Source: an uncultured Collinsella sp. (lineage in GTDB: Bacteria; Actinomycetota; Coriobacteriia; Coriobacteriales; Coriobacteriaceae). Taken from it: a stretch of DNA of 13,692 nucleotides. Under the pieces are notes generated by a model. The model had not been told where the DNA came from, made no database searches, and worked only from the letters and a program-made list of their open reading frames with translations. The stretch spans positions 1 through 13,692 of the forward strand of contig USKL01000015.1 in NCBI GenBank assembly GCA_900555225.1, written 5' to 3'. The position numbers and the translations under genes are program-made. Below, piece after piece: positions 149-11,987 of the stretch; the stretch's first letter is position 1; each line of letters opens with the position of its first letter.

Positions 149-868
149 TTACATGACCATAACGTAGCGCGATCCCACGTAGTACTGCTTACCCATCAGG
201 ACCGGCTCGCCATTGGGACCGGTAAAGCCTGCACGCAGGTTGAGCAGTGGATCGTGCGGGGCAATGCCCAGCTCGGCCGCCTGCTCGGCATTGGCACGAA
301 CGGCCTCGACCGTGCGGTAGCCAACCGAGACAATCGGCGTTCCGCCAACACGCTCGACCTCGGCAAAAATCGACTTGTCCTCAAGATCGGCCGTCAACAG
401 CTCACGATATGCGTCAAAGGGCACAAAGATATTCTCCTCAAAGATGGGCTCGCCGTCGGCCGTACGCACGCGCTTGATATGCAGCAGCAGCGCATCCTTC
501 TGCAGGCCAAAGAACTCCATCTCGTTTTGACGCGCCGGAACGATCTGGCGATCGACCACATGTGCACCGGCCTTCATGCCGTTGCCGGCACACAGCGCGG
601 TAAACGTCTGCAGCGTCGAGGCATGGAACTGACGATTGATGTGCGGCGTGGAAACAAAGGTGCCGCGGCCCTGTTGCTTAACCAGGTAGCCATCGGAGCA
701 CAGCTCCTCGACGGCGCGGCGCACCGTAATGCGGCTCACGTCGTACTGCTCGGCTAGCTCAAGCTCGGACGGAATACGCTCCTTGGGTGCATAAACACCT
801 TTCTCGATCGCATCCTTGATTTCGTCGTAAATCTGCTGGTAAAGCGGTGCATTTTTGGGCGTAGGCAT
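149..868 (-). CDS. GntR family transcriptional regulator, HutC/UTRA subfamily
   Basis: This 239-residue protein is a normal length for the HutC/FarR branch of GntR. Residues 1-72 form the winged helix-turn-helix, with PSELELAEQYDVSR and ITVRRAVEEL as the recognition region and GRGTFV as the wing. Residues from about 90 to 230 match the UTRA effector domain, which usually binds a sugar phosphate or related small molecule. The ATG at 868 has only a weak ribosome site (AAGAGTGA). A TATAACGTCT motif lies in its upstream region (911-920) and recurs before the PTS operon and the DMT gene, so it is the likely local repressor of those genes and of itself. B. subtilis FrlR, which controls fructosyl-amine genes, belongs to the same subfamily. 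The effector is unknown; a 6-phosphorylated Amadori compound is a guess from context. Confidence 0.93.
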   Translation of the reverse strand: MPTPKNAPLYQQIYDEIKDAIEKGVYAPKERIPSELELAEQYDVSRITVRRAVEELCSDGYLVKQQGRGTFVSTPHINRQFHASTLQTFTALCAGNGMKAGAHVVDRQIVPARQNEMEFFGLQKDALLLHIKRVRTADGEPIFEENIFVPFDAYRELLTADLEDKSIFAEVERVGGTPIVSVGYRTVEAVRANAEQAAELGIAPHDPLLNLRAGFTGPNGEPVLMGKQYYVGSRYVMVM

Positions 869-910
869 ATCTAATCACTCTTATCGAAATATCGAAATAA
901 CTAATACGTA

Positions 911-920
911 TATAACGTCT
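911..920 (+). promoter_or_regulatory. Putative operator, TATAACGWCT motif, gntR copy
   Basis: TATAACGTCT lies 43 bases before the GntR start, within an AT-rich stretch that contains TATACG- and TATTAG-like -10 candidates on the minus strand. The same decamer occurs exactly at 6798-6807 before the PTS operon, and with one difference at 8081-8090 (opposite strand) before the DMT gene. The position suits autoregulation by the adjacent GntR protein. That assignment is inferred. Confidence 0.55.
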
Positions 921-960
921 AGTTTCATGTTACCTCATAATGATAAAACGATACACCCTC

Positions 961-993
961 CCTACCAAAAAGCGACAGCTTCATTTTGGTAGG
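961..993 (+). repeat. 33-nt palindromic repeat, copy 1
   Basis: Perfect 10-bp arms CCTACCAAAA (961-970) and TTTTGGTAGG (984-993) flank the 13-nt core AGCGACAGCTTCA. Copies 2 (2841-2873) and 3 (10273-10305, minus) have the same 10-13-10 layout. Identity with copy 2 continues past the right arm through TTTTATCTGGG, to 1004. It lies between the GntR promoter and the YitT terminator. Confidence 0.8.
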
Positions 994-1011
994 TTTTATC
1001 TGGGCAAACGA

Positions 1012-1047
1012 GAGCCTCCCGAAAGCAACGAGGCTTTCAGGGGGCTC
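1012..1047 (-). terminator. Terminator-like hairpin after the YitT-family gene
   Basis: Arms of 15 nt (1012-1026 and 1033-1047) pair fully if two G-U wobbles are allowed, around a 6-nt loop. It lies 42 bases after the stop of the minus-strand YitT-family gene. The bases that follow on that strand are TCTCGTTTG, a poor T-run, so termination is plausible but not certain. Confidence 0.55.
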
Positions 1048-1088
1048 AAGTGGACAGGATTGCGCCAGGCCGGCAAAATGCCAACACT

Positions 1089-2096
1089 CTACCTGCCGTC
1101 GTCCTGCTGCAGGCTGTCCTGCTCGCTGAGGCGCGCCTGCCTGCTGGCCATGCGCGCGGGCTTGTCGGGATCGGGTACGGCCGTGGGCATGGGCTCGTCG
1201 ACATGACCGCCCCACCAGCCGCCCACAAAGTTGAGCGTGTGGAACACATTGATCACGGCGCCGGGATCAATGTCGCACACCAGCTTGATAATGTCCTGGC
1301 TCTCGTAGGTCGATACAACGGCGTGCAGCAGGTACATCTTTTCGCGGCTGTATCCGCCGATGACCTCGGCGCAGCTAATGCCGTGCTGAAAATGGTCAAC
1401 ATAGGCGGTCATGACCTCGTCGGCCTTGCGCGTCGTGATCTGCAGCGTCACGCGGTCGTAGCGACGATAGAAACTGTCGATGGTCTTGGTCGAAATAAAC
1501 TGGAACACGATGGAGTACGCCGCGTTGTCCCAGCCAAACATAAAGCCAAAGATCGCCAGGATAAAGCAATTGAAACCAAAGATAACGCCCCAGATGGTCT
1601 TGCCCGTGTGGTTGGAGACCCACAGCGCGATAAAGTCGGTGCCGCCGGTAGATGCGCCGGACTTTAGCGCGATGGCAGCGCCCAGACCCGAGACCACGCC
1701 GCCAAAAATGATGAGCATAATCTTGTCGCCCAAAAACGGGGCGAAGTGAAAGATGTTGAGGAACAGCGACGAGAGCACGACCTGCATCATCGAGAAGATG
1801 ACGAAGCGCTTGCTAATGCCGCTCCAGCATAAGAGCGCCACGGGGATGTTGAGCGCGAGCATACCGAGCGAGATGTCGATGTGAACGCCGCCGAGCGAGG
1901 TAACGCGATCAAGCAGGACCGCGACGCCGGTGAGGCCGCTCGGAAGCAGGTCGGCGGGCTGAATGAACGCCTGGATCAGGAATGTTTGGAGGACGGCAGA
2001 AATTGTGACCGCCACGGCGGTAATGGCACGGCGGACGATGGTGAGGCGGCCGAGCATGAGCACGCGGTCCGTGAGCTGATCGATGGCGTTCGCCAC
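1089..2096 (-). CDS. YitT family membrane protein (YitT_membrane plus DUF2179)
   Basis: The protein has 335 residues with several hydrophobic segments in its first 220 residues. It includes the family's SGASTGGTDFIA stretch around residues 147-158 and a GGVVSGLGAAIALK segment just before it. A soluble domain of DUF2179 type follows (about 220-285, with AEVIGGYSREKMYLLHAVV). The tail after residue 290 is polar and poorly conserved. The start is a GTG at 2096, supported by AAAGGAG five bases upstream. Proteins of this family are widespread integral membrane proteins of unknown transport role, sometimes called YitT/YpjC/YqfU. Nothing ties it to the sugar-amine genes, and it has its own 3' hairpin. 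Confidence 0.9.
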   Translation of the reverse strand: MANAIDQLTDRVLMLGRLTIVRRAITAVAVTISAVLQTFLIQAFIQPADLLPSGLTGVAVLLDRVTSLGGVHIDISLGMLALNIPVALLCWSGISKRFVIFSMMQVVLSSLFLNIFHFAPFLGDKIMLIIFGGVVSGLGAAIALKSGASTGGTDFIALWVSNHTGKTIWGVIFGFNCFILAIFGFMFGWDNAAYSIVFQFISTKTIDSFYRRYDRVTLQITTRKADEVMTAYVDHFQHGISCAEVIGGYSREKMYLLHAVVSTYESQDIIKLVCDIDPGAVINVFHTLNFVGGWWGGHVDEPMPTAVPDPDKPARMASRQARLSEQDSLQQDDGR

Positions 2097-2153
2097 GTAG
2101 GCTCCTTTCGAAGGCAGATGTAGTTGTGGGGCATGCCCGCGATTGTAGCATGG

Positions 2154-2188
2154 ACCACCACGAAGGTGCCTGTCCCCTTTGTGGTGGT
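2154..2188. repeat. Hairpin with ACCACCAC arms and a GGGGACAGG core
   Basis: Perfect 8-bp arms ACCACCAC (2154-2161) and GTGGTGGT (2181-2188) enclose a 19-nt core. Read on the minus strand, the core is AAAGGGGACAGGCACCTTC. It begins 7 bases after the HAD gene stop and may act as a 3' stem-loop for it. TTT follows only on the plus strand. The core resembles that of the other intergenic hairpins here although the arms do not. Confidence 0.65.
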
Positions 2189-2195
2189 TTTGCTG

Positions 2196-2825
2196 CTAAA
2201 TGGCAGATAGGATGTCGGTCAGGTTGTCGATGACAACGTCGGCGGCGGACTGGTCCAGGTTGACGCCCTCGTGCGGACGCAGTGCCAGGACGCGGGCGCC
2301 GGAACGTTTGCCAGCCTCGATCCCCAAAGGCGAATCCTCGATAACCAGGCACTCGGCAGGCTCCACCCCCAGCGCCTCCATGGCACGCAGGTAGATCTCG
2401 GGGTCGGGCTTAAACGCACTGCACTCGTGACCGCTGATGGTGTAGTCCAGCACGTCGGGGATACCGGCAATCTCCACCAGCTCGTCGATCAACTCGCGAT
2501 AGGACGAGCTCGCGATGGCACACTTCACGCCGCGCTCGTGCAGTGCGCGCATCACCGGCTCCGTCTGCTCGTTGAGCAGCTCGGCATACGGAACGGGATG
2601 GTCCGGGCTATAGACCTGCTTGTACTCCACGCGCAGACGCTCGCGCAGCTCAACATCGTCGGGCACCAGCGCCTCCCAAATGGCAGGCTCGTTAGACCCC
2701 GAAAGATCGGGGATCTCGTCAAAGTGGAAGCCCTTCTCCTCCATAAACGCCACGCGACGACGGTTGTAGAACCACTCGGTATCGACCAGCACGCCGTCCA
2801 TATCAAACAGCACTGCCTTGATCAT
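2196..2825 (-). CDS. HAD superfamily hydrolase, beta-phosphoglucomutase-like
   Basis: A 209-residue haloacid dehalogenase-like phosphatase of subfamily IA. Motif I is FDMDGVLVDT with the nucleophile Asp8 and acid/base Asp10. The alpha-helical cap follows (about 15-90). Motif II is Ser106 in AIASSS, motif III is Lys139 in FKPDPEIY, and motif IV is Glu163-Asp164 in VIEDSPLGI. All catalytic residues are present. An in-frame extension to 2960 exists but runs through a repeat. The ATG at 2825 is preferred because GGAGG lies 8 bases upstream, whereas the ATG at 2831 is only 2 bases from it. It probably acts on a sugar phosphate or similar metabolite; the motifs do not fix the substrate. It lies beyond the deglycase terminator, so it is probably a separate transcript. 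Confidence 0.9.
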   Translation of the reverse strand: MIKAVLFDMDGVLVDTEWFYNRRRVAFMEEKGFHFDEIPDLSGSNEPAIWEALVPDDVELRERLRVEYKQVYSPDHPVPYAELLNEQTEPVMRALHERGVKCAIASSSYRELIDELVEIAGIPDVLDYTISGHECSAFKPDPEIYLRAMEALGVEPAECLVIEDSPLGIEAGKRSGARVLALRPHEGVNLDQSAADVVIDNLTDILSAI

Positions 2826-2840
2826 ACGCATCTCCTCCCA

Positions 2841-2873
2841 CCTGCCAAAAAGGGTCAGGTTTATTTTGGTAGG
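2841..2873 (+). repeat. 33-nt palindromic repeat, copy 2, in the HAD leader
   Basis: Arms CCTGCCAAAA (2841-2850) and TTTTGGTAGG (2864-2873) pair with one G-U wobble around the core AGGGTCAGGTTTA. TTTTATCTGGG follows, as in copy 1. On the HAD transcript the hairpin would end one base before TGGGAGGAG, the ribosome site. Confidence 0.8.
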
Positions 2874-2919
2874 TTTTATCTGGGGTTTTACGGCGCGACA
2901 GACACGCCCTCCCCAGAGC

Positions 2920-2950
2920 AAAAAGGGGACGGGGCACAAACCCCATCCCC
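2920..2950 (-). terminator. Rho-independent terminator of the PTS/deglycase operon
   Basis: On the minus strand GGGGATGGGG (2950-2941), loop TTTGTG and CCCCGTCCCC (2934-2925) form a 10-bp stem with one G-U pair. TTTTT (2924-2920) follows at once. It starts 34 bases after the stop of the SIS deglycase gene. This is the clearest terminator in the central region and marks the operon end. Confidence 0.88.
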
Positions 2951-2984
2951 TCTCAATCAACCCGTAAGGTCTACTTACTTGTGA

Positions 2985-3968
2985 TTAGTAGGAAAGCTTC
3001 CACATGTAGCGACGCATGGTCAGCGGGTGCTGACGGGCCTCGGCGATCTGGTTGCCGTACTCGCGCATAACGGCGAGGTGCAGCAGCGGGTTGAAGTAGG
3101 TGACGACGCTCGCGGGCACAGCGTCAGCCAGGCCGTAGTCCTTGGAGTCGATCAGAGCGACCTTGGCGCCCATGCGCTCAAGGAAGGTGAGGGCGCGGGC
3201 GTCCATCGGACGGGTGGCGCCATCGGACATGAAGAAGACGTAGGGCTTACCCTCGGTGGAAACCTCGAACGGGCCGTGGAAGTACTCGCCGGTGTTGTAG
3301 GCGGCGGCGTCGATCCACTGCATCTCGGTGAACAGGAAGGCAGCGTGAGAATAAGCCATCTTCTCGGAGGCACCGGAAGCCATGAAGTAGATCATCTTGT
3401 CGTCCTTGAAGTCCTCGGCGAACTTCTTGGCGAGCTTCTTGCAGTGCTGAGCGGCGTTCTCGCAGAGCTCGAAGACGTTGGTAAGGCCGGTGATCATGTC
3501 CTCGTAGTGGTCATAGCCCTCGGTCTGCTGAAGGATCTCGACAGCAAGAGCGATGGCGTAGCCGGGCTTCTCGCACTTGGCAGCGAAGTTGGCGTGGAAG
3601 CCGTGAACGATGACGTAGTCAGCGTCGACGGTCAGAGCGGAGCCGGCCTTGTTGGTGAGGGAGACGACCGGGCAGTTGTGCTTCTTGGCGGTCTTGTTGG
3701 CCTCGACGGTCTCGGGCGTGGAGCCACCGAGAGAGCAGGTGATCACGAAGGTGTGCTCGTTGACCCAGGAAGGCGTGTCGTAGTTGAACTCGTTAGCGGT
3801 AAAGATCTGAACGTTCAGCTTGTCCGTGTTGTTGGCCAGGAAGTACTTGGCGGGGTAAAGGTCGGACATGGAAGCACCGCAGCCGACGAAGGCGACGCTG
3901 TGGATCTCGTGGTTGGACAGGACGTCAGCGACGATCTGCTTAGGGAGGTTAAGGTCGATCTCGTACAT
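2985..3968 (-). CDS. SIS-domain sugar-amine 6-phosphate deglycase, FrlB/GfrF-like
   Basis: The 327-residue protein has two SIS domains and no glutaminase domain, so it is not GlmS. The first domain has VGCGASMSDLYPAKYF (28-43) and the phosphosugar loop SLGGSTPET (79-87). The second has Glu215 (FTEMQW) and His231 (GEYFHGPFE), 16 residues apart. That matches the catalytic Glu/His pair of the GlmS isomerase domain (Glu488/His504) and of FraB-type deglycases. The C-terminus RRYMWKLSY recalls the RRYYGGLVEY end I remember for E. coli FrlB. These enzymes split fructoselysine-6-P or glucoselysine-6-P into glucose-6-P and lysine. The ATG at 3968 has AAAGGA 9 bases upstream; upstream ATGs at 3977 and 4001 lack good spacing. 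It follows the PTS IID gene by 199 bases. Lysines are almost all AAG, which suggests strong expression. The exact amine is not determined. Confidence 0.88.
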   Translation of the reverse strand: MYEIDLNLPKQIVADVLSNHEIHSVAFVGCGASMSDLYPAKYFLANNTDKLNVQIFTANEFNYDTPSWVNEHTFVITCSLGGSTPETVEANKTAKKHNCPVVSLTNKAGSALTVDADYVIVHGFHANFAAKCEKPGYAIALAVEILQQTEGYDHYEDMITGLTNVFELCENAAQHCKKLAKKFAEDFKDDKMIYFMASGASEKMAYSHAAFLFTEMQWIDAAAYNTGEYFHGPFEVSTEGKPYVFFMSDGATRPMDARALTFLERMGAKVALIDSKDYGLADAVPASVVTYFNPLLHLAVMREYGNQIAEARQHPLTMRRYMWKLSY

Positions 3969-4058
3969 CTGACACATTCCTTTCGATTTTTGCGGCGCCA
4001 CATTGCCGGGCGCTCGCAGGGTTACCGTGGTTTGGACCGAGTCGCCGGCCCGTTAAGG

Positions 4059-4089
4059 ATGCGACAAAGGGACTGTCCCATTGTCGCAT
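4059..4089. repeat. 31-nt palindrome with GGGACTGTCCC centre
   Basis: Perfect 9-bp arms ATGCGACAA (4059-4067) and TTGTCGCAT (4081-4089) enclose a 13-nt core, AGGGACTGTCCCA. The core pairs with itself, giving one near-continuous stem with a single A/A mismatch. It lies between the PTS IID gene and the SIS gene. The 9-13-9 layout and the AGGGAC core start resemble the 33-nt repeat, although the arms differ. Confidence 0.75.
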
Positions 4090-4102
4090 TTTGGGGATGG
4101 AA

Positions 4103-4133
4103 GCCTGCCTGGGGTATGGGATGCCAGGCAGGC
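4103..4133. other. 10-bp stem-loop between PTS IID and the deglycase gene
   Basis: GCCTGCCTGG (4103-4112) and CCAGGCAGGC (4124-4133) are perfectly complementary around an 11-nt loop. It begins 34 bases after the IID stop. No T-run follows on the minus strand, so I read it as a processing, stabilising or partial termination element rather than the operon end. Confidence 0.6.
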
Positions 4134-4167
4134 CCCCGGGGGAAAGCGGTTAGGCGCTTGGTCGCGA

Positions 4168-5001
4168 CTAGGCCAGGATGCCGGCCGCGGAGAGGGCGAT
4201 GCCGCCCACAATGGCGATCACGAGAAGCCAACCGGTGTTGACGTTCTTCTTGATGAGCCAGTACATAAGGCCGGTGAGGCCAAGGGAAATCATCTGGGGC
4301 ATCATGCCGTCCAGGATGTCCTGGATAACGACGGTGCCCTCAGCGAACTGCAGCGGGGTGGTGGCGCCAATCAGCGTAGCGATCATGCCGCCCACGGACA
4401 TAAGGCCCACGATGCCGCAGACATACATGAGCTTCTCCATGAGGTCGCCGCCCTGAAGCTTGCTCAGGTACTCGTGGCCGCCCTGATAGCCCATCTTGGC
4501 TGCGAACCAGGTGATCAGCACAGAGGGGACGATGGAGATGAGCATGGCCAGGATCGGGCCCATGATGGAGCCCTGCTGAGCCAGCTGAACGCCCAGGCCA
4601 AAGGCGATAACGCGGATGGTGCCCTGGAAGAAGGAGTCACCGATGCCGGAAAGCGGACCCATGAGGGAGGTCTTGACCGCGTTGATCGAATCGGGATCGA
4701 AGTTCTCAGGATCCTTGGCGTACTCCTCCTCCATGGAGGCGGAGAGGCCCAGGATGAAAGCGCTCGTCTGCGGGGTGCAGTTGTAGAACGCCATGTGACG
4801 GTGGTAAGCCTCTTTCTTAGCAGCGAGCTGCTTGGGGTCGGACTCGTCCGGATAGAGGCGATCGAGCGTGGGAACCATGCCGTAGAGGAAGCCCATGTTC
4901 ATCTGACGCTCGTAGTTCCAAGAGGCCTGGATGGCCCAGGAGCGCCAGAAGAACTGGCTGACCTTCTTGTTCAGGGACACGTCCTTGGTTGCGGTTGCCA
5001 T
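4168..5001 (-). CDS. PTS mannose/fructose/sorbose family IID component
   Basis: A 277-residue membrane subunit of a mannose-class PTS permease. Family signatures are plain: SWNYERQMNMGFLYGMVP (27-44), HMAFYNCTPQTSAFILG (69-85), ASMEEEYA (88-95) and SLMGPLSGIGDSFF (112-125). Hydrophobic segments follow to the C-terminus. With IIC it forms the translocation channel and is needed for sugar specificity. The ATG at 5001 has AAGGAGG about 8 bases upstream. The frame is open further upstream into the end of the IIC gene, but that stretch has no better start. It follows the IIC gene by 13 bases, so the two are co-transcribed and probably translationally coupled. Confidence 0.96.
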   Translation of the reverse strand: MATATKDVSLNKKVSQFFWRSWAIQASWNYERQMNMGFLYGMVPTLDRLYPDESDPKQLAAKKEAYHRHMAFYNCTPQTSAFILGLSASMEEEYAKDPENFDPDSINAVKTSLMGPLSGIGDSFFQGTIRVIAFGLGVQLAQQGSIMGPILAMLISIVPSVLITWFAAKMGYQGGHEYLSKLQGGDLMEKLMYVCGIVGLMSVGGMIATLIGATTPLQFAEGTVVIQDILDGMMPQMISLGLTGLMYWLIKKNVNTGWLLVIAIVGGIALSAAGILA

Positions 5002-5014
5002 AGTGTGTTCCTCC

Positions 5015-5809
5015 TTAGTCTTCGTCGTCTTCGAGCGGATCGTAGTCGGAATCGACACCGGCGGCTGCATGGGAACCGTTGAACTTGAAGCCCATGAAGA
5101 CGACAGCCAGGCACACACCGATCAGAGCGACCGCGATGACGGACAGGTTGAGGTAAGCGGCGAGCAGGAAACCGATGAACAGGAACGGAGTCATACCCTT
5201 CTTGATCATCATGGTGAGCAGCAGGGCCAAGCCGTAGGCGGTCATGATCTTGGTCGAAACGTTAAGACCAGTGGACAGCCACTCGGGAACCATGTTGACG
5301 ATGGCCTGAACCAGGTCGGTGCCAACAAAGACGGCGAGGAAGATCGGCAGGAAGTACATGACGGCGTACAGACCGGAGCCGGCGCAGATGTGCATGCGGT
5401 AGGCGGTCTTGAACTTTCCGTTATCGATCGCGCTATCTGCCACATGGGTGAGGGCGGCGATGATGGAACGGAACACGATGCCGAGGAGCTGACCCAGGAC
5501 GGCGACCGGGATGGCGATCGTCATGGCGGTCTCGGCGGAAGCATCGGTCAGGCACGCAAAGGCAGCGGCCACGATGCCGCCCAGGACCATATCGGGCGGA
5601 ACGGCAGCGCCGACCTGCACCAGGCCCATGGACACGAGCTCGACGGCGGCACCGACGGCAAGGCCGGTGGGCACATCGCCCAGCAGCAGACCGACGAGCG
5701 TAGCGCCAACGAGGGGCTGCTCGAAGTTAAGACGACCGAGCAGGCGGGAGTCCCACATGCAGAACACGCCGACGAGGCCGACGAGCACCGCACTGATGAA
5801 CGTATTCAT
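5015..5809 (-). CDS. PTS mannose/fructose/sorbose family IIC component
   Basis: A 264-residue polytopic membrane protein with the EII-Sor/Man signature AAVELVSMGLVQVGAAVPPD (54-73), including the conserved Glu57. Many hydrophobic segments run to about residue 240. The C-terminal tail is acidic and cytoplasmic in character (DSDYDPLEDDED). It is the sugar-conducting subunit paired with IID. The ATG at 5809 has AAAGGAG seven bases upstream. It follows the IIAB stop by 36 bases. The substrate cannot be read from IIC alone. The downstream FrlB-like deglycase points to an Amadori sugar-amine rather than mannose. Confidence 0.96.
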   Translation of the reverse strand: MNTFISAVLVGLVGVFCMWDSRLLGRLNFEQPLVGATLVGLLLGDVPTGLAVGAAVELVSMGLVQVGAAVPPDMVLGGIVAAAFACLTDASAETAMTIAIPVAVLGQLLGIVFRSIIAALTHVADSAIDNGKFKTAYRMHICAGSGLYAVMYFLPIFLAVFVGTDLVQAIVNMVPEWLSTGLNVSTKIMTAYGLALLLTMMIKKGMTPFLFIGFLLAAYLNLSVIAVALIGVCLAVVFMGFKFNGSHAAAGVDSDYDPLEDDED

Positions 5810-5845
5810 ACCCTTCTCCTTTCAGTCAGGCAAAAGCCTGGTTGA

Positions 5846-6769
5846 TTACAGCTTGGCGTCGATGTCGACGCTCTGATACGTAGGGGTCTGCTGGACATAG
5901 AGCTTGATGCCCATGTCGAGCAGCTGGTTGACGTCGGCCTTCTGGGCGGCGTCGAGGAAGACGGAGCTGTCCTTGCCGCCGACCTGATCGGCACCGTCGT
6001 GGTTGGCGGTGGCGCCCAGGTTGATGGCGTCGAGCTTGTAGCCCTGGCAGAACTGCAGCATCTCGGCCGTGTTGCCAAAGACGAACATGACGCGCTCGCC
6101 GAGGGTGTTGAGCTTGTCCATCTTGGCGAGGGCACGCTCGACGGTGAAGACGTTCAGGCGCACGCCCTGGGGCTTGGCCAGCTTAAGAGCGCCCTTCTTG
6201 ATGTCATCGTTGGCGGCAGCGTTGTCGACGACGATGATGCGCTCGGCCTGAACCTTGGTGGTCCAGGTAAAGACGACCTGGCCGTGCAGCAGACGGTAGT
6301 CAAGACGTGCGAGGACGATCTTGGCGGGACCGGAGCTGTGACGGGACGCCTTGGCCTTCTTGGCGGGAGCCGCGGCGGCCTCGACCGGTGCGTTGGGGTT
6401 GGTCAGACCGGTGCGGGCCTCATTGATGAGGGCCGCGAGCTCGGCGCCCTTGACGGGGACGGGGCTCATAGCGAGCGTGAGCGCCAGCGGGATGTTGAAA
6501 CCGCTGACAACCGTGAACTTCGTGCCGTTCTTGGAAAGCTCGACCATGTTGTTGTTGACCGAGCTGCCGAGCATATCGGTCAGCACATAGACGGTGTCGT
6601 CCGCGTTGAACGTGGCGATCATGGCGTCCACCTTATTGGTGATGGGCTCCTTGTCGTCACGAGCAAGCGACACGACGTGGACGTTCGACACGTCGCCGAG
6701 AACCATCTCGAGCGTGTCTTTGGCGCCTGCGGCCAGGCCGCCATGAGATGCGAGAATGATCTGATTCAT
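5846..6769 (-). CDS. PTS mannose/fructose/sorbose family fused IIAB component
   Basis: A 307-residue cytoplasmic phosphotransfer protein. Residues 1-125 are the IIA domain with phospho-acceptor His9 in ILASHGGLAAG and the usual VLTDMLGSS strand. An Ala/Pro/Lys-rich linker spans about 126-148. The IIB domain (149-307) has phospho-acceptor His162 in ARLDYRLLHGQVVFTW. Phosphate passes from HPr to His9, then to His162, then to the incoming sugar bound by IIC/IID. The ATG at 6769 follows GGAGGAGG at good spacing. It is the first gene of the operon, with a TATAAT box and operator motif just upstream. IIA and IIB are fused here as in E. coli ManX; as I recall, the Salmonella gfr system has them as separate proteins. 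Confidence 0.96.
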   Translation of the reverse strand: MNQIILASHGGLAAGAKDTLEMVLGDVSNVHVVSLARDDKEPITNKVDAMIATFNADDTVYVLTDMLGSSVNNNMVELSKNGTKFTVVSGFNIPLALTLAMSPVPVKGAELAALINEARTGLTNPNAPVEAAAAPAKKAKASRHSSGPAKIVLARLDYRLLHGQVVFTWTTKVQAERIIVVDNAAANDDIKKGALKLAKPQGVRLNVFTVERALAKMDKLNTLGERVMFVFGNTAEMLQFCQGYKLDAINLGATANHDGADQVGGKDSSVFLDAAQKADVNQLLDMGIKLYVQQTPTYQSVDIDAKL

Positions 6770-6795
6770 CTTGCCTCCTCCTTTTCGTTATGGTC

Positions 6796-6801
6796 ATTAT
6801 A
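6796..6801 (-). promoter_or_regulatory. -10 box of the PTS/deglycase operon
   Basis: A consensus TATAAT lies on the minus strand 27 bases before the IIAB start, leaving a short leader with a strong ribosome site. No good -35 hexamer sits 16-18 bases upstream (AATATA there). This suggests activator dependence or a weak core promoter. The operator motif at 6798-6807 overlaps it. Confidence 0.6.
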
Positions 6802-6818
6802 ACGTCTTATACGTTGCT
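6798..6818 (+). promoter_or_regulatory. Putative operator, TATAACGWCT motif, PTS operon copy
   Basis: TATAACGTCT (6798-6807) is identical to the site before the first GntR gene. TATACG (6809-6814) follows as a second half. On the minus strand this reads CGTATA-AGA-CGTTATA, a direct repeat overlapping the -10 box, which is where a repressor would block initiation. The assignment to the 149-868 GntR is inferred. Confidence 0.6.
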
Positions 6819-6840
6819 TATATTGCTAATTAGTATAAAG

Positions 6841-6874
6841 ACCGTTCGCGGGTGAAAATCGACCGTTGACGGGT
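6841..6874. repeat. Direct repeat ACCGTTnnCGGGT, 21-bp period, upstream of the PTS promoter
   Basis: ACCGTTCGCGGGT (6841-6853) and ACCGTTGACGGGT (6862-6874) match at 11 of 13 positions and start 21 bp apart, two helical turns. They lie about 40-75 bases upstream of the TATAAT box, a typical place for an activator. No known factor is assigned. Confidence 0.45.
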
Positions 6875-6951
6875 TTAACGTACTTGAAACGTTGGCGCAG
6901 GGCAGATCGACACTGGCCAGGCGGTGCCCATTCAAGCGTTCCGCCCATCCC

Positions 6952-8034
6952 CTATCGCACGAAGTACCAGGGGCTTTCCTGCACGGTGGGCTCCAGCGCG
7001 ATGCCGGTGCGCTCGCGGAACAGATCCATGTCCTGCGATTTCTCCGTCCACCACGCGTTGGGCTTAAAGGTCATGCTCTCAACGATATGGCCGACAAAGG
7101 CACTGTTGCGCAGCTTGGAGAAGTCGGTGTTCATAATCAGGATGGACGCGAGCACCAGCACGATGCCCAGGACCTTGATCGCGCCGGCGGGCTCGGCGTA
7201 GATGCCAATACCGACCAGAACGGTCGCCACGGTTTCGAACGAAGCCACGACCGGCACCTTCGACGTCTCGAGATCCATCGAAAGGCCCTGCATATAGAAG
7301 ATGTACGCAAGAGCCGTCGGAATAAAGCCAAAGCCCGCGAACAGCAGAATGAGCTGCGGGGACATTGCCGCGGCCACATCGGACCACGGAGCCGAAAGCA
7401 CTGCCATAAAGCATCCGCCAAAGACAAAGCCCCAAAACGTCACCGCCAGAGGATGCAGCGTCTTGGTGGCCATGCGACTAAACACAGCCAGCAGTGCACC
7501 GCAAAGTCCGGCGATCACGCCCGACACGACGCCCCAAGCCGAGAAATGGAAACCGGACAGGTCGCCGCTCGTCACCGCGAGCACGCAACCCACAATGTTA
7601 AAGACGATGGCGACGAGCTTGTTGGGGGTCACGTCCTCGCGATAAAGCACGCGGCCGAGCATGACGCCAAACACCGGCGAGGTGTAGAGCAGCACCGAGG
7701 CCGTGGACATGCCCACCTCGCCCATGCACTCGTAATAAAGCGTGTTAGCGGTGGCGAGGCCGATAATGCCAAGAAGCGCGCAGGGAACAAGCTCTTTAGG
7801 ACTTGCCTTGAACAGTGCCATGGGACCCGAGGCTTTTCCCTCACGAGCACCTCCCTGGCAACCCATAAATGCCAAGACCGGAGCCATTAAGACAGCACCC
7901 GACAACAGGCGAAGGGCCGCCATGCTCTGAGACGAAACACCCAGGGCCGATATTCCGTTAACAAAGATTCCGATGGTGCCCCACATAAGCGCGGCGATCA
8001 GCACCAGCACATAGCCCAGATTGCTTTTCTTCAA
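6952..8034 (-). CDS. DMT superfamily (EamA) permease, possible amino acid or amine exporter
   Basis: A 360-residue drug/metabolite transporter with two EamA halves and about ten membrane segments. It opens with LGYVLVLIAALMWGTIGIF and has the second-half pattern HPLAVTFWGFVFGG and GFGFIPTALAYIFYMQGL. A hydrophilic tail of about 55 residues after the last segment (NTDFSKLRNS onward, ending ESPWYFVR) is longer than usual. The frame extends to a GTG at 8070, but the predicted transcript starts near 8069 and that GTG has no ribosome site. TTG at 8034 has GAGGAGG five bases upstream and is preferred. Known relatives (RhtA, YddG) export amino acids. The TATAACGWCT-like site in its promoter links it to the PTS operon, so export of the freed amine is a reasonable guess. 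Confidence 0.85.
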   Translation of the reverse strand: MKKSNLGYVLVLIAALMWGTIGIFVNGISALGVSSQSMAALRLLSGAVLMAPVLAFMGCQGGAREGKASGPMALFKASPKELVPCALLGIIGLATANTLYYECMGEVGMSTASVLLYTSPVFGVMLGRVLYREDVTPNKLVAIVFNIVGCVLAVTSGDLSGFHFSAWGVVSGVIAGLCGALLAVFSRMATKTLHPLAVTFWGFVFGGCFMAVLSAPWSDVAAAMSPQLILLFAGFGFIPTALAYIFYMQGLSMDLETSKVPVVASFETVATVLVGIGIYAEPAGAIKVLGIVLVLASILIMNTDFSKLRNSAFVGHIVESMTFKPNAWWTEKSQDMDLFRERTGIALEPTVQESPWYFVR

Positions 8035-8075
8035 CGCAGCCTCCTCGGTATTGTTTCCAATATGTTTCACACTAC

Positions 8076-8101
8076 GTTATAGTCGTTATATACATTTTTC
8101 A
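8076..8101 (-). promoter_or_regulatory. Promoter and putative operator of the DMT gene
   Basis: On the minus strand TATAAC (8081-8076) is a -10 candidate with TCTTGA or TTGAAA 15-17 bases upstream. On the plus strand CGTTATA occurs twice in tandem (8075-8081 and 8084-8090). The AGTCGTTATA at 8081-8090 is a one-mismatch reverse complement of the TATAACGTCT sites before the gntR gene and the PTS operon. The predicted start near 8069 leaves a leader of about 35 bases to the TTG codon at 8034. Confidence 0.55.
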
Positions 8102-8128
8102 AGACACAAATCGCCGAACGGAAAAATG

Positions 8129-8208
8129 ATCCGCTGGGGACGGAGGAAAACGGATCACTGAGGGGCTGGTCTGAGTCAGTGATCCGTTTTCCTCCGTCCC
8201 CAGCGGAT
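8129..8208. repeat. Perfect 33-bp inverted repeat (REPIN-like)
   Basis: Arms 8129-8161 and 8176-8208 are exactly complementary over 33 bases around a 14-nt loop. Each arm is itself a small palindromic unit: GATCCG (8128-8133) and CGGATC (8151-8156) flank a core with GGGGACGGAGG. The structure is therefore two inverted copies of one unit facing each other. It fills the gap between the second SIS gene and the DMT promoter. No open reading frame or transposase is nearby. Confidence 0.88.
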
Positions 8209-8218
8209 TACTTGGCGG

Positions 8219-8281
8219 TTGCGGTGAAATAGTTCCTAAATAGAGGCTTCAAGCCCCCAAACAGGAACTATTCCACCGCAA
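8219..8281. terminator. Long stem-loop after the second SIS gene
   Basis: TTGCGGTGAAATAGTTCCT (8219-8237) pairs with 8263-8281 at 18 of 19 positions. A second short stem (GGCTT/AAGCC) sits inside the 25-nt loop. It begins 37 bases after the stop of the minus-strand SIS gene and could stop or protect that transcript. There is no T-run, so the terminator role is uncertain. It may be another mobile palindrome. Confidence 0.5.
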
Positions 8282-8318
8282 CTTATGAGGACATCGAGCT
8301 GTTAGGCCGCTCTATCCC

Positions 8319-9311
8319 CTAGTAGTCGAGCTTCCACATGTAGCGGCGCGTCATGTAGTCCTTGTGCGTGACGGCAGAGAGCGCGCGCATGTACACATTG
8401 TTGAGGATCGGGGCAAAGATCAGGTGGTTGAAGTACTCGCTCACGCTGTCCTTGATGTCGTTGAGGCCGAGCTCCTTGGCGTCGAGCTGATAGACGCGCT
8501 CGCCACCGTACTGGTTGACGAAGCGGATACCGCGCTCGTCGTTGCAGCGGCTGCGGCCGACGCTGATGAGCTGGAACAGCGAGGTGCGCTTGTCCAGAAT
8601 CTCGAAGGGACCGTGGAAGAAGTCGCAGGTGTTGATGGTGCAGGAATCGATCTGCAGCATCTCCTGCACGTTGCAGATGCTAAAGACGTAGGCGGCACCA
8701 AAGAGCGGGCCCTGGGCCATCACGTTGATGCAGGGCTTGTCGGCGTTTTGCTCGGCCCACTTGGCGGCGAGCGGACGGGTGTACTCGACGGCCTTGCGAT
8801 AGATGGGGTCAACCAGGTCGAAGGCGGCCATAGCGGTCTCATACTCGGCATAGCCCTCGGTCTGCTGCGTAAGCTCCATGGCGATCATGGTCACGACGGC
8901 GGAGTTGGTACGGCCCATGCAAGACTCGTCGACGGCCAGGCTGTCATACTGAATCTTGTAGTCGCAGACCTCGGTGAGGCCGGACTCGTCGACATAGATG
9001 GCGATGGTGCTGGCGCCGTGGTCCTTGGCGGCCTGGGCGGCGACGATGGTCTCCTTGGTGCCGCGCATGGACACGACGACGGCCAGGGTGTTCTCGTTGA
9101 CATAGGCGGGCGTGGCGTGCACGAACTCATTGCTGGTGTAGCTGGAGCTCACGACCTGCGTGGCCTCGTGCTCCATAAAGTACTGGGCAGGATAGTTGCC
9201 GCCGTTGGATCCGCCGGCGCCAATCCACACGACACGCTTGATGCCGCCCTTGTCTGCCTTGTCGGCCAAAACCTGGGAGACGACGTCCTTAACCTGTTCC
9301 TGAGTAGTCAT
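8319..9311 (-). CDS. Second SIS-domain sugar-amine phosphate deglycase-like protein
   Basis: A 330-residue double-SIS protein distantly related to the one at 2985-3968. Shared features are IGAGGSNGGNYPAQYF (30-45), the loop SMRGTKET (81-88), the end RRYMWKLDY, and the catalytic pair Glu217 (VQEMLQ) and His233 (DFFHGPFE), again 16 residues apart. It differs in the phosphosugar loop, one residue shorter and closer to the VSDYGKTEEV I recall for E. coli FrlB, and in having CDFFHGPFE instead of GEYFHGPFE. It may act on a different Amadori or Heyns compound, as GfrE and GfrF divide glucoselysine-6-P and fructoselysine-6-P in Salmonella. The ATG at 9311 has AAAGG ten bases upstream. It is divergent from the second GntR gene and probably under its control. 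Confidence 0.82.
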   Translation of the reverse strand: MTTQEQVKDVVSQVLADKADKGGIKRVVWIGAGGSNGGNYPAQYFMEHEATQVVSSSYTSNEFVHATPAYVNENTLAVVVSMRGTKETIVAAQAAKDHGASTIAIYVDESGLTEVCDYKIQYDSLAVDESCMGRTNSAVVTMIAMELTQQTEGYAEYETAMAAFDLVDPIYRKAVEYTRPLAAKWAEQNADKPCINVMAQGPLFGAAYVFSICNVQEMLQIDSCTINTCDFFHGPFEILDKRTSLFQLISVGRSRCNDERGIRFVNQYGGERVYQLDAKELGLNDIKDSVSEYFNHLIFAPILNNVYMRALSAVTHKDYMTRRYMWKLDY

Positions 9312-9349
9312 CGTGCATCAGCCTTTCTTCTCGTTTGATGCTCTCGATG

Positions 9350-9394
9350 GCATACAAGTTACATACATGTTTTGGTTATGTCGACTAGTTGTAT
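9350..9394. promoter_or_regulatory. Putative operator cluster before the second SIS gene
   Basis: ATACAAGTT (9352-9360) and ATACATGTT (9363-9371) form a direct repeat with 11-bp period, preceded by GC. An inverted copy, ATACAACTA, lies at 9394-9386 and is also preceded by GC on its strand. The cluster lies 40-85 bases upstream of the SIS start codon. It matches the pair at 9489-9510 in front of the second GntR gene. Confidence 0.65.
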
Positions 9395-9488
9395 GCTATA
9401 TTTGTCTTAGAAATTTTACTGATGCTGTTTTTGATAACTAGCTACCAGCGGTTTTGTTGTTGTATTGAATACATGCTTGATTAGACTC

Positions 9489-9510
9489 GCATACAGGTTA
9501 GATACAGGTT
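9489..9510 (+). promoter_or_regulatory. Putative autoregulatory operator of the second GntR gene
   Basis: ATACAGGTT occurs twice exactly (9491-9499 and 9502-9510), 11 bp apart. The 22-base unit starting with GC matches 9350-9371 at 19 of 22 positions. It lies 7-28 bases before the ATG, so it overlaps the only ribosome-site candidate (AGG at 9506-9508) and probably the transcription start. A weak promoter TTGTAT-N16-TAGACT (9460-9487) is possible. A related half, ATACATGCT, lies at 9469-9477. Confidence 0.65.
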
Positions 9511-9516
9511 GATCGC

Positions 9517-10272
9517 ATGAACGCTTCATCTAAAAAGAAACTGAGCCAATACGAGCGCTTGGCGGGTACGCTTCGCGACCGCATCGCCGCCGGCATCTAC
9601 GCACGCGGAGACAAGCTGCCGTCCGAGATGGAGCTCATGGACGAATCGGGGCTGTCGCGCAGCACCGTGCGCCACGCCCTTAAGGTTCTCGTTGATGAGG
9701 GCCTGGTGCGCACCGAGCGCACGGCAGGCCGCTTTGTCACGGAGGATACCGCATTGATCGAACAGCTCCGCGCCGACACAGCCGCGCTCCACGAGAACAA
9801 CCTAGTGTTTTCGAGCTATACCAAGCAGGTCGAAGGTCAGGGCATGAAGCCCACCACGCGCACCGTGGACTCGGGCTTTGCCAAGGCGGCCGGCAGCATA
9901 GCTAAGTTCTTTGACGCCGCCGTGGGCAGCAAGCTCGTCAAACTTGTCCGCCTGCGCTACCTGGACGACGTGCCGCTGTGCCTGGAGACCACCTACCTGC
10001 CGCCAAGCTTCGAGACGCTCATCGATCGCGATATCAACGGTTCGCTCTACGCGACGCTGCGCCAAGAATTCCATCGCGCGCCAGCACAGGGACATAAGAC
10101 CTTTGAGGTGTGCTATGCCTCGCAAAACGAGGCGTTTTTGCTCAACGTCGAGCGCGGGCAGGCGCTGATCCTGATCACCGACTACGTCTACGACACCGAC
10201 GGCCGACCGCTCCATGTCTCTAAGCGCATCCAACGCACCGACCGCGCCAAATACACCGAGCCAATCGGCTAA
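9517..10272 (+). CDS. GntR family transcriptional regulator, HutC/UTRA subfamily (second)
   Basis: A 251-residue protein and the only plus-strand gene in the window. Residues about 10-77 are the winged helix-turn-helix (KLPSEMELMDESGLSR, STVRHALKVLVDEGLVRTER). Residues about 95-245 match the UTRA effector domain, with VRLRYLDDVPLCLETTYLP as a typical strand pattern. It is transcribed away from the second SIS gene. The 205-base gap contains duplicated ATACARGTT sites on both sides, so it probably represses itself and that SIS gene. Its own ribosome site is weak. The effector is unknown; a phosphorylated sugar or sugar-amine fits the family and neighbours. Its stop is immediately followed by repeat copy 3. 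Confidence 0.93.
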   Translation: MNASSKKKLSQYERLAGTLRDRIAAGIYARGDKLPSEMELMDESGLSRSTVRHALKVLVDEGLVRTERTAGRFVTEDTALIEQLRADTAALHENNLVFSSYTKQVEGQGMKPTTRTVDSGFAKAAGSIAKFFDAAVGSKLVKLVRLRYLDDVPLCLETTYLPPSFETLIDRDINGSLYATLRQEFHRAPAQGHKTFEVCYASQNEAFLLNVERGQALILITDYVYDTDGRPLHVSKRIQRTDRAKYTEPIG

Positions 10273-10305
10273 CCTGCCAAAATAAACCTGTCCCTAAATG
10301 GTAGG
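10273..10305 (-). repeat. 33-nt palindromic repeat, copy 3, between convergent genes
   Basis: Read on the minus strand, arms CCTACCATTT and TTTTGGCAGG flank the core AGGGACAGGTTTA. Outer pairing is 7 bp with one wobble. It begins on the base after the stop of the second GntR gene and contains the stop codon and last few codons of the GNAT gene on the other strand. It may serve as a bidirectional 3' hairpin. Confidence 0.75.
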
Positions 10306-10884
10306 TTTGGGGAGGTCGGGGAACCAGGTTGGTTTGGGTTGGTTGGGCGTGCGCTCGGCAAGGACCAACTCCATCCAGCACATGTCGTACCAGCGGCCGA
10401 ACTTTTGGGCGCAGCGGTCAAAGGCGCCCACCAGGCGATACCCCATATGGGCATGGAAGTCCTGGCTGTTGTGCGTCAGGTACTCGTCGTCCTTGTCGTG
10501 CGGCACGGCGATGAGGGCGCACATGTTGGTGATACCCATCGCGATCAGGCATTGCTTGAGCGCGTCATGCAGCTTGCGGCCCAGCCCGCCGTGGCGCACA
10601 TCACGCGCCAGGTAGATCGATGTCTCGACCGACCAGTCGTATGCCTCGCGGCTGTTGAGCGGACTCACATAGGCATAACCTACCGGACGCCCATCCAGCT
10701 CCATCACCAAATACGGATAGCGCTTGAGCGTGCGCTCGATGCGCCCGGCGAACTCCTCAACGCTCGGCACCTCGTATTCGCAGGTAATCGCCGTCTGGCG
10801 CACATACGGCTCATAGATGGCAAGCAACGCCGGCGCATCATCGGGCGTCGCCAGGCGAATCGTCGGCTCGGACATCTCGGTCAT
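10294..10884 (-). CDS. GNAT family N-acetyltransferase, phosphinothricin/YncA-like
   Basis: A 196-residue acetyltransferase. The N-terminal IRLATPDDAPALLAIYEPYV is typical of the Pat/YncA (MnaT) group. RDVRHGGLGRKL (94-105) is the acetyl-CoA pyrophosphate-binding motif. HMGYRLVGAFDRCAQKFGRW followed by YDMCWMEL (146-173) is the usual C-terminal signature. Relatives acetylate methionine sulfone/sulfoximine, phosphinothricin or other small amines; the substrate here is unknown. The ATG at 10884 has GGGGAAGGG just upstream; the in-frame ATG at 10908 lies in the preceding terminator. The final residues (about 180-196, Pro-rich) run into repeat copy 3 and probably lie outside the fold. Confidence 0.88.
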   Translation of the reverse strand: MTEMSEPTIRLATPDDAPALLAIYEPYVRQTAITCEYEVPSVEEFAGRIERTLKRYPYLVMELDGRPVGYAYVSPLNSREAYDWSVETSIYLARDVRHGGLGRKLHDALKQCLIAMGITNMCALIAVPHDKDDEYLTHNSQDFHAHMGYRLVGAFDRCAQKFGRWYDMCWMELVLAERTPNQPKPTWFPDLPKPTI

Positions 10885-10900
10885 ACAACCCTTCCCCCTC

Positions 10901-10943
10901 AAAAACAAAGGCCGCCTTGCGCCAAACCCAGCGCAAGGCGGCC
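10901..10943 (-). terminator. Rho-independent terminator of the threonine aldolase gene
   Basis: GGCCGCCTTGCGC (10910-10922) and GCGCAAGGCGGCC (10931-10943) form a perfect 13-bp stem with an 8-nt loop. On the minus strand TTTGTTTTT (10909-10901) follows. It begins 18 bases after the threonine aldolase stop and separates it from the GNAT gene, whose ribosome site comes just after. Confidence 0.92.
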
Positions 10944-10961
10944 CCTCGTCATTACATCAGG

Positions 10962-11987
10962 CTACAGAACCGCCGCCAACGCGTCGATATCCTCCTGCGT
11001 CGTGGCCCAGCTGGTGCAAAAGCGCACCACCGTGTGGGTCTCGTCGTACTTTTCCCAGTACTCGATCGCCGCATGCTCGCGAATGCGCGCCATGTCCTCG
11101 TTGGGCAGAATCACGAACTGCTGGTTAGTCGGCGTCTCCAAGAAGAACCGGTAGCCGTGCTCGTGCAGCACGCGACGAAGCGCCTGCGCGGTTTCGATCG
11201 CCTGACGGCCAATCTCAAAATACAGGCCATCGGTAAAGAGCGCCTCAAACTGGACGCCCGTCAGGCGGCCCTTGGCCAACAGCGCACCGTGCTGCTTAAT
11301 GCGCGGAATGGGATGCGCCGGAGCGTGTATGCCGCAAAACACCACAGCCTCGCCGCACAGAGCGCCGCACTTGGTGCCGCCGATGTAGAACACGTCGCAC
11401 AGCTGCGCCAGCTCGGGCAGGGTAATGTCGCACTCATCGGCCGCCAGCGCATAGGCCAGGCGGGCACCGTCCACAAACAGCGGAATCTGGCGCTTCTGGC
11501 ACACCGCATGGATCGCCGCGAGCTCGGCCTTGGAGTACAGCGTGCCGTACTCGGTCGATAGGCTCACGTACACGGCGCCTGGGAACACCGTATGCTCGTA
11601 GCTCTCGTTTTCGTAGAACACCTGGATATAGTTCTCGAGGTCCTCGGCGTGCATCTTGCCCTCGTAGCCGGGGATGGTGAGCACCTTGTGGCCGCCAAAC
11701 TCGATGGCGCCCGCCTCGTGGCAGGCGACGTGGCCGGTCTCGGCAGCAACGACGCCCTCGTACGGCGCGAGCAACATGTCGATCACCGTCGCGTTGGCCT
11801 GCGTGCCGCCCACCAGAAAAAACACGTCGGCATCGGGGGCCTGGCAGGCCTCGCGAATAAGTTGCTTGGCGCGCTCGGTATGTGCATCGGTACCGTAGCC
11901 GGGCTGCGGCTCCATGTTGGTATCGACGAGCGCCTGCAGCACCGCCGGGTGTGCGCCGTGGGAATAATCGTTGTTGAACGCGAGCAT
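10962..11987 (-). CDS. ltaE: Low-specificity L-threonine aldolase
   Basis: A 341-residue PLP-dependent fold-type I enzyme, normal for the family. It cleaves L-threonine or L-allo-threonine to glycine and acetaldehyde in the cytoplasm. The N-terminal FNNDYSHGAHPAVL is characteristic. Lys206 in FYIGGTKCGAL is the Schiff-base lysine. DGARLAYAL (173-181) holds the Asp that pairs with the pyridine nitrogen. HVACHEAGAIE (86-96) carries the ring-stacking His. The ATG at 11987 has GAGGA seven bases upstream. It follows the PAP2 gene by 45 bases with no obvious terminator between, and ends at a strong terminator. Serine or beta-hydroxy amino acid side activities are common in the family. Confidence 0.93.
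   Translation of the reverse strand: MLAFNNDYSHGAHPAVLQALVDTNMEPQPGYGTDAHTERAKQLIREACQAPDADVFFLVGGTQANATVIDMLLAPYEGVVAAETGHVACHEAGAIEFGGHKVLTIPGYEGKMHAEDLENYIQVFYENESYEHTVFPGAVYVSLSTEYGTLYSKAELAAIHAVCQKRQIPLFVDGARLAYALAADECDITLPELAQLCDVFYIGGTKCGALCGEAVVFCGIHAPAHPIPRIKQHGALLAKGRLTGVQFEALFTDGLYFEIGRQAIETAQALRRVLHEHGYRFFLETPTNQQFVILPNEDMARIREHAAIEYWEKYDETHTVVRFCTSWATTQEDIDALAAVL

Follow-up and report, generated by a model that had tools for sequence, protein, structure and literature searches.

A candidate kinase-free fructosamine utilisation module with a mannose-class phosphotransferase system and two predicted deglycases in Collinsella

Introduction

Several described systems for the use of glycated amino acids can be compared with a gene cluster on a stretch of 13,692 nucleotides (nt) from an uncultured Collinsella sp. 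(GenBank assembly GCA_900555225.1, contig USKL01000015.1; the whole stretch is hereafter called the window), which encodes a phosphotransferase system (PTS) and two SIS-domain proteins, named here SIS1 and SIS2. In the fra system of Salmonella, which serves fructose-asparagine, the deglycase FraB (PDB 9otj series) acts on 6-phosphofructose-aspartate (6-P-F-Asp) and its E214A variant is catalytically inactive (PMC10100877); a Dcu-type transporter, an asparaginase and the kinase FraD complete the system (PMC10100877, PMC4072780). The frl systems of Bacillus subtilis (frlBONMD) and Escherichia coli (frlABCD) combine a kinase and an ABC or other transporter with a single FrlB-type deglycase, and it has been reported that FrlB and FrlD of B. 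subtilis prefer alpha-glycated amino acids and that the E. coli counterparts serve epsilon-glycated lysine (PMC12632257). The gfrABCDEF operon of Salmonella and Enterococcus, for fructoselysine and glucoselysine, consists of a mannose-class PTS and two SIS enzymes (PMC12675984) and has a LevR-type activator (LevR-like sigma54). A seven-gene 'GFR' operon of Faecalibacterium prausnitzii, another predicted fructosamine PTS of a gut commensal, was mapped by its authors to gfrABCDF, with gfrE absent (PMC12136445), and was compared here by description only. Finally, Salmonella STM0577-STM0572 encodes a putative PTS whose inducer is listed as not known, and it therefore lends no substrate to the comparison.

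The window most probably carries a kinase-free fructosamine utilisation module (rough probability 0.75), in which the PTS would import and phosphorylate the substrate and SIS1 and SIS2 would deglycate it. The imported sugar-amino acid compounds are probably those formed in heated food. PTS-type fructosamine catabolism and its parts are known, and the combination, the replacement of the kinase and the SIS2 subfamily are apparently new to us. No description of the module in Collinsella was found in the literature looked at, which is weak evidence of novelty as most subscription journals lay outside the coverage.

Results and discussion

SIS1 and SIS2 in the deglycase branch

The initial annotation had read both SIS proteins as deglycases of phosphorylated sugar-amines. 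In agreement with this prediction, phmmer, a tree and structural alignment all placed SIS1 and SIS2 with Salmonella FraB, STM0572 and B. subtilis FrlB. In the tree, which was made by a quick method and has long branches among the outside references, both lay outside GlmS, AgaS, GfrE and GfrF, and the deglycase branch had a value of 97 in the SH-like approximate likelihood ratio test. Clustering with AgaS or GlmS, the outcome named beforehand as speaking against a deglycase role, was not seen for either protein at the sequence level: NagB-II and GlmS were separated from SIS1 and SIS2 by score, and GlmS and AgaS by the tree. SIS1 matched STM0572 and FraB at 246-248 bits. Identity to FraB was 35-39% for the two proteins over 300-308 aligned residues, with E214 and H230 of FraB kept.

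Related loci were collected with a SIS2 alignment, and the best 80 of 106 loci together with the window made up 81 sources. Both catalytic residues were kept in all 64 SIS1 open reading frames (ORFs), which also share EMQW, while among the SIS2 ORFs Glu was kept in 81/81 and His in 76/81. The pair lies 16 residues apart in both window proteins, as had been noticed from the sequence (Table 1). As a deglycase marker, however, this spacing was discarded, since it occurs equally in E. coli GlmS and FrlB, B. subtilis FrlB, FraB, GfrE and GfrF (18 in AgaS) and thus marks the SIS superfamily rather than the deglycases.

These placements bear on two other explanations. An amino-sugar pathway, with SIS1 and SIS2 as glucosamine 6-phosphate or galactosamine 6-phosphate deaminase-isomerases of the AgaS, NagB-II or GlmS type, is extremely unlikely. 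A SIS fold and a mannose-class PTS are common to aga loci, and weak matches to NagB-II and GlmS were obtained, but tree and scores put both proteins in the branch of FraB and B. subtilis FrlB, their relatives adjoin an FrlD-type kinase and an FrlC-like epimerase, and none of the ten window proteins scanned with Pfam was an aldolase or deacetylase.

The other explanation is equivalence to gfr, in which the PTS would take fructoselysine and glucoselysine, with SIS1 in the role of GfrF and SIS2 in that of GfrE; such a pair had been suggested initially. The locus has the same parts list as Salmonella gfrABCDEF and as an operon of gfr layout on an E. raffinosus plasmid (L110), which supplied our GfrE and GfrF references, named by layout and not by assay. 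Besides, the window IID and its gfr counterparts share a 26-row group away from ManZ and AgaD (95/88; the two outgroup rows do not make up one side of a branch there), and SIS1 scored 85.7 bits with the glmS model, slightly above the 73.5 bits with that of FrlB. On the other hand, neither SIS protein groups with GfrE or GfrF of L110, SIS1 reached only 52-54 bits with FrlB/GfrF structures (GfrF of L110 itself best matches 8glr/2a3n), and the window IID belongs to a SIS1-linked clade (100/100) separate from that of GfrD. We therefore consider this equivalence unlikely. The Gfr comparison, and glucoselysine with it, weakens, whereas the label of Amadori deglycase stands as a prediction from the sequences. 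The initial view that layout and regulation are unlike those of gfr and frl also proved right, as the window has a fused IIAB and UTRA-GntR regulators in place of a LevR-type activator.

SIS2 as a distinct subfamily

SIS2 is a separate subfamily within the deglycase branch. Its phosphate loop reads SMRGT in 80 of the 81 ORFs (STRGT in the remaining one) and is thus a variant, lacking one residue relative to SHKGNT of FraB and SLGGST of SIS1, the latter keeping the usual S-x-x-G-x-T; at the catalytic Glu, all 81 have EMLQ instead of EMQW. When 36 SIS2, 19 SIS1 and 5 other branch proteins were compared, nine positions were invariant in the five others yet fixed otherwise in SIS1 or SIS2. SIS2 deviates at seven of them (FraB numbering): in every row at 29 (Ala), 82 (deleted), 182 (Trp), 216 (Leu) and 314 (Tyr), and in more than 90% of rows at 224 and 226. 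SIS1 deviates at 31 and 121 and is variable at 82 and 224.

In five Lactobacillus SIS2 proteins (L061, L065, L066, L069 and L072; SIS2 at about 10001-10996) the catalytic His is replaced by Asn (YEYFNGPFE). The arrays of L061 and L069 have an additional SIS gene after SIS1. This loss, the conserved pairing of SIS1 with SIS2, and the report that FraB and FrlB are homodimers (PMC9609667), so that SIS enzymes of this kind pair, would fit a single enzyme made of both proteins, with SIS2 as its structural or regulatory partner. We regard such an arrangement as very unlikely, as each protein occurs in other genomes without the other nearby and 76 of 81 SIS2 ORFs retain both catalytic residues.

A PTS in place of the kinase

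The second line of evidence for a kinase-free module comes from the neighbourhoods of SIS2. Dereplication at 90% SIS2 identity left 47 loci, window included, among which 32 had a PTS only, 12 a kinase only, none both and three neither; the latter are L033 (on a contig of 3.7 kb), L042 (which has an amino-acid-type ABC binding protein and whose contig stops 1.5 kb away) and L071, and contig ends also cut several PTS loci. With the L070 kinase as query (E 1e-3), the ORFs lying up to 9 kb from SIS2 gave no match in either the window or the 31 other dereplicated PTS loci, and eight of the 12 kinase loci matched it at 300 bits or more. For the two typed kinases, L070 and L044, the best NCBIfam model was fructoselysine 6-kinase (178 and 167 bits; next model 80 and 64), both lying below its cut-off of 247, as does the kinase neighbouring a plasmid fraB (158). 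Among the best 80 loci, an FrlC-like epimerase accompanied 11 of 13 kinase loci and none of 62 PTS loci. ABC-transporter genes go with the kinase, and the SIS2 loci of Lachnospiraceae have an frl-like parts list of kinase, ABC transporter, SIS and FrlC-like protein.

On the SIS2 tree the PTS label changes four times, with at least three changes forced by well-supported branches, and the kinase runs opposite to the PTS in all three independent pairs. The PTS appears to replace the kinase. Two loci, L053 and L076, have a PTS of another clade, which implies that replacement by a different PTS also happened.

Two side observations were made in these loci. In L053 (5167-16142), SIS2 stands with a different mannose-class PTS and with dihydroxy-acid-dehydratase-type, ornithine-cyclodeaminase-family and proline-racemase-like proteins, which may form a separate route for a glycated amino acid; the last two neighbours were too thin as an amino-acid hint and were not used. 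In the kinase-type loci L058 (8706-9134, 7851-8702), L051 and L073, a UPF0047/YjbQ protein adjoins a protein of 283-289 amino acids (aa), for which a scan of the L058 copy gave no NCBIfam match.

Conservation and mobility of the module

The module of SIS2, PTS, SIS1, HAD phosphatase and GntR regulator recurs across Coriobacteriia and is real and conserved. The order SIS2, (EamA), IIA/IIAB, IIB, IIC, IID, SIS1, HAD, regulator was found in Collinsella and Enorma, and Olsenella and Atopobium show it slightly altered; in Collinsella and several other Coriobacteriaceae, EamA separates SIS2 from the PTS. Close versions occur in Pediococcus, Lacticaseibacillus, Lactobacillus and Enterococcus species. 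SIS1 was present in 56 of 59 SIS2 loci with a close PTS, and the three others (L026, L035 and L040) lie on contigs that stop about 2 kb downstream of SIS2. A HAD protein like that of the window occurs in 49 of these 59 loci as opposed to 0 of 18 loci without a PTS. The window SIS2 protein shows 99-100% identity to SIS2 in records of Collinsella, C. aerofaciens among them. Of 148 relatives of Collinsella sp. 4_8_47FAA, 32 matched SIS2 strongly (404 bits or more). All 32 also had a hit in the SIS1 band (141-173 bits), which in 31 cases shared the contig with SIS2 and lay no more than about 7 kb from it; three more had a SIS1-type hit only. These SIS1-type hits were assigned by score and position, not by tree. 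Two SIS1-IID fusions (P0134 and P0211) were rejected as evidence of coupling, being likely assembly or frame artefacts: P0134 extends out of IID across the intergenic DNA, and in P0211 IID and SIS1 are each joined at an internal point.

A Pediococcus pentosaceus plasmid, typed as conjugative and from a food strain, carries a short regulator gene, SIS2, LevR, PTS, SIS1 and pgmB. A LevR-like gene at 150 bits or more was found in seven of 80 loci, which all belong to Lactobacillales; L053 has a weaker match. Plasmid stretches of E. faecium (L111 4436-11435, L105 5460-8975) carry the PTS and SIS1 without SIS2; in L111 a sigma54-type activator and a HAD gene follow.

From these data a wider proposal can be made, namely an unnamed, horizontally mobile, kinase-free fructosamine system of Coriobacteriia and Lactobacillales, in which one PTS feeds two non-equivalent deglycases and SIS2, as founder of a new deglycase subfamily with a short phosphate loop and altered tail, acts on other glycated compounds such as Heyns products, glycated peptides or non-amino-acid amines. 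We hold it tentatively and with more doubt than belief.

Operator-like motifs and predicted regulation

Motif A (TATAACGWCT) has exactly three sites in the window, all upstream of module genes. In the window and 22 loci it had 57 sites; 60 permuted 10-mers had 0.2 on average and at most 4. Most of these loci are near relatives, which inflates the count of 57. Over the 81 sources there were 72 sites in 37, and 71 sites lay within 260 nt upstream of an ORF start. Targets were assigned in 15 distant sources (L037 onward): the motif precedes SIS2 in seven Coriobacteriia (L041, L043, L045, L046, L049, L052 and L055), the PTS in L037, L039, L040 and L078, a GntR gene in L067 and, in two clostridial loci (L056 and L074), SIS1, and in L042 it serves no module gene start. 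The Bacillota sites lie at 28 in L056 and 1333 in L074 (both SIS1), 2961 in L067 (GntR gene) and 10952 in L037 (IIA); these sites upstream of module genes point to a possible transfer of regulator and operator between phyla along with the module. Motif B (TGTATSTAACYTGTATG) lies upstream of SIS2 and regulator B and occurs in 18 of the 81 sources, the window and near Collinsella relatives. Regulator B is divergent from SIS2 in loci of Collinsella, Enorma, Pediococcus and Lactobacillus.

We predict that regulator A represses the PTS-SIS1 unit, EamA and its own gene, and that regulator B represses SIS2 and its own gene. One reading is that the operator of regulator A is old and once covered SIS2, PTS and SIS1, and that in Collinsella SIS2 passed to regulator B.

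Two neighbouring but separate pathways, the PTS with SIS1 for one compound and SIS2 with its own regulator and another transporter, are not likely either. SIS2 does have its own regulator with motif B in the window and near relatives, it occurs without SIS1 in eight of 13 kinase loci, and the E. faecium plasmids show the PTS and SIS1 without SIS2; yet SIS2 heads the same array in many genera, motif A stands directly upstream of it in the seven Coriobacteriia loci, and all 32 relatives with a strong SIS2 match have the SIS1-type hit described above.

Gene arrangement and accessory genes

The gene content and positions first annotated (fused IIAB, IIC, IID, SIS1 and SIS2) were confirmed by ORFs and Pfam, which found all four mannose-class domains IIA, IIB, IIC and IID (Table 1). 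The system is a mannose-class PTS (TC 4.A.6), and His9 and His162 lie in the IIA and IIB phosphorylation-site motifs present in IIAB. SIS1 starts with ATG, a longer GTG start is possible, and its residue numbers refer to the 327-aa form.

Table 1. Genes and operator-like sites of the window
Feature	Position	Strand	Remarks
GntR/UTRA regulator A	149-868	-	Pfam GntR + UTRA
Operator-like site A1, TATAACGTCT	911-920	+	43 nt from regulator A start
YitT-family membrane protein	1089-2096	-	
HAD phosphatase	2196-2825	-	beta-phosphoglucomutase-like family (Pfam/NCBIfam)
SIS1	2985-3968	-	predicted 6-phospho-fructosamine deglycase; E215/H231
PTS EIID, mannose class	4168-5001	-	Pfam EIID-AGA, 306 bits
PTS EIIC	5015-5809	-	Pfam EII-Sor, 241.8 bits
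PTS EIIAB fusion	5846-6769	-	Pfam EIIA-man + PTSIIB_sorb; His9 + His162
Operator-like site A2, TATAACGTCT	6798-6807	+	29 nt from IIAB start
EamA/DMT transporter	6952-8070	-	Pfam EamA, 116.9 bits; operator-like site A3 in front
Operator-like site A3, TATAACGACT	8081-8090	-	11 nt from EamA start
SIS2	8319-9311	-	second predicted deglycase, of distinct subfamily; SMRGT loop, EMLQ, E217/H233
Operator-like site B1, TGTATGTAACTTGTATG	9351-9367	-	upstream of SIS2
Operator-like site B2, TGTATCTAACCTGTATG	9490-9506	-	upstream of regulator B
GntR/UTRA regulator B	9517-10272	+	Pfam GntR + UTRA; divergent from SIS2

The minus-strand genes are transcribed in the order SIS2, EamA, IIAB, IIC, IID, SIS1, HAD, YitT and regulator A. 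The gaps between IIAB and IIC, IIC and IID, and IID and SIS1 are 36, 13 and 199 nt. A single transcription unit for the PTS and SIS1, as initially claimed, is plausible, although IID and SIS1 are 199 nt apart. None of the four terminator-like sites found in positions 1-10400 lies in the IID-SIS1 gap. This gap (3969-4167) contains an inverted repeat (gcctgcctgg...ccaggcaggc), which possibly tunes SIS1 expression. A long inverted repeat with 45-nt arms (8117-8161/8176-8220; 89% complementary, 14-nt spacer) lies between EamA and SIS2, and a dispersed 44-nt intergenic repeat (CCTACCAAAAAG...TTTTATCTGGG) has three copies in the window (961-1004, 2841-2884 and, inverted, 10271-10314).

The best NCBIfam match of EamA was a carboxylate/amino acid/amine transporter model (108 of 230 bits). 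With motif A in front and this type of best match, export of the freed amine or amino acid by EamA is conceivable. Build-up of 6-P-F-Asp has been reported to be toxic in fraB mutants (PMC4941530, PMC12755824), and for this reason we propose that HAD could dephosphorylate excess phospho-intermediate. YitT-family proteins stand beside or near SIS2 loci of different phyla (window, L021, L022, L023, L038, L042, L073 and L064); YitT-like genes number 3-8 per genome in ten genomes, and the recurrence may be partly by descent. Threonine aldolase and GNAT neighbours were dropped as an amino-acid clue, the aldolase being confined to near Collinsella and GNAT scattered.

Proposed mechanism and substrates

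In the proposed route, the mannose-class PTS (IIAB, IIC, IID) would import a sugar-amine, most likely a glucose-amino acid Amadori compound, and phosphorylate it during import, presumably at C6. SIS1, and SIS2 for a second substrate class, would then hydrolyse the 6-phospho-fructosamine through the Glu/His acid-base pair, presumably giving glucose 6-phosphate and a free amino acid or amine. Regulator A would sense the phosphorylated substrate through its UTRA domain and switch the PTS-SIS1 unit, EamA and itself, and regulator B would switch SIS2 and itself; the ligands are suggested by the UTRA domains and by the proposal for E. coli FrlR quoted in PMC12632257. EamA may export the released amine and HAD may relieve build-up of the phospho-intermediate.

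Kinship with FraB and B. subtilis FrlB makes alpha-glycated amino acids likelier than a role like that of the Gfr pair, and by this analogy we give alpha-glycated amino acids about an even chance of being the substrates; epsilon-fructoselysine comes next. Specificity in the deglycase family can change quickly. The initial annotation pointed to Collinsella intestinalis, which has reportedly been found to consume fructoselysine; no record titled C. intestinalis was among the best 80 of the 106 SIS2 loci. A related Collinsella genome (G001) has at least two further SIS proteins. One (L102 8200-9168) is encoded about 8 kb beyond SIS1 next to another GntR gene akin to regulator A; the other (L103 6744-7745) adjoins an FrlD-type kinase (185 bits, cut-off 247), the pair spanning L103 5866-7745. 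Because of this separate kinase and SIS pair, the C. intestinalis argument does not point to the window locus, and fructoselysine-eating Collinsella may use a pair of the L103 type.

Several findings weigh against the proposed kinase-free module. The NCBIfam equivalog of FrlB (PRK11382) was not reached, with 73.5 bits for SIS1 and 59 bits for SIS2 against a cut-off of 430. Four of the 12 kinases (L051, L058, L073 and L074) matched the reference kinase at just 90-163 bits, and the phylogenetically independent evidence for exclusion of kinase and PTS is small, since with only three pairs significance is unreachable (sign test, p 0.25). Asn in place of His in the five Lactobacillus proteins suggests that not every SIS2 has to be a deglycase. 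The links between regulators and operators are associations of motifs. In its exact form, motif A is missing from 44 of the 81 sources, including the ruminal Coriobacteriaceae L024-L035 and all Lactobacillales but one, and motif B is missing from 63.

Comparison with described systems

The window shares with fra the branch of its deglycases, and in one plasmid copy a GntR-type regulator adjoins fraB; it differs by a PTS, two deglycases and no kinase. STM0572 and B. subtilis FrlB lie in the same SIS branch, and FrlB-type deglycation is the point of likeness to frl, whose kinase, transporter and single deglycase set it apart. With gfr the window has in common a mannose-class PTS and two SIS proteins, which belong to another branch in gfr, as does the IID to another clade.

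Conclusions

A survey of gut fructosamine degraders focused mainly on the kinase gene frlD, with frlB as the second step (PMC9749803). Since a PTS that phosphorylates during import needs no kinase, searches based on the kinase would miss the route proposed here in Collinsella and other Coriobacteriia and also in lactic acid bacteria, with the Pediococcus pentosaceus plasmid copy from food as one example. The locus also offers a clean comparison of two deglycases of the same branch, with the same catalytic pair and different substrate loops, which makes the basis of substrate choice in these enzymes directly testable.

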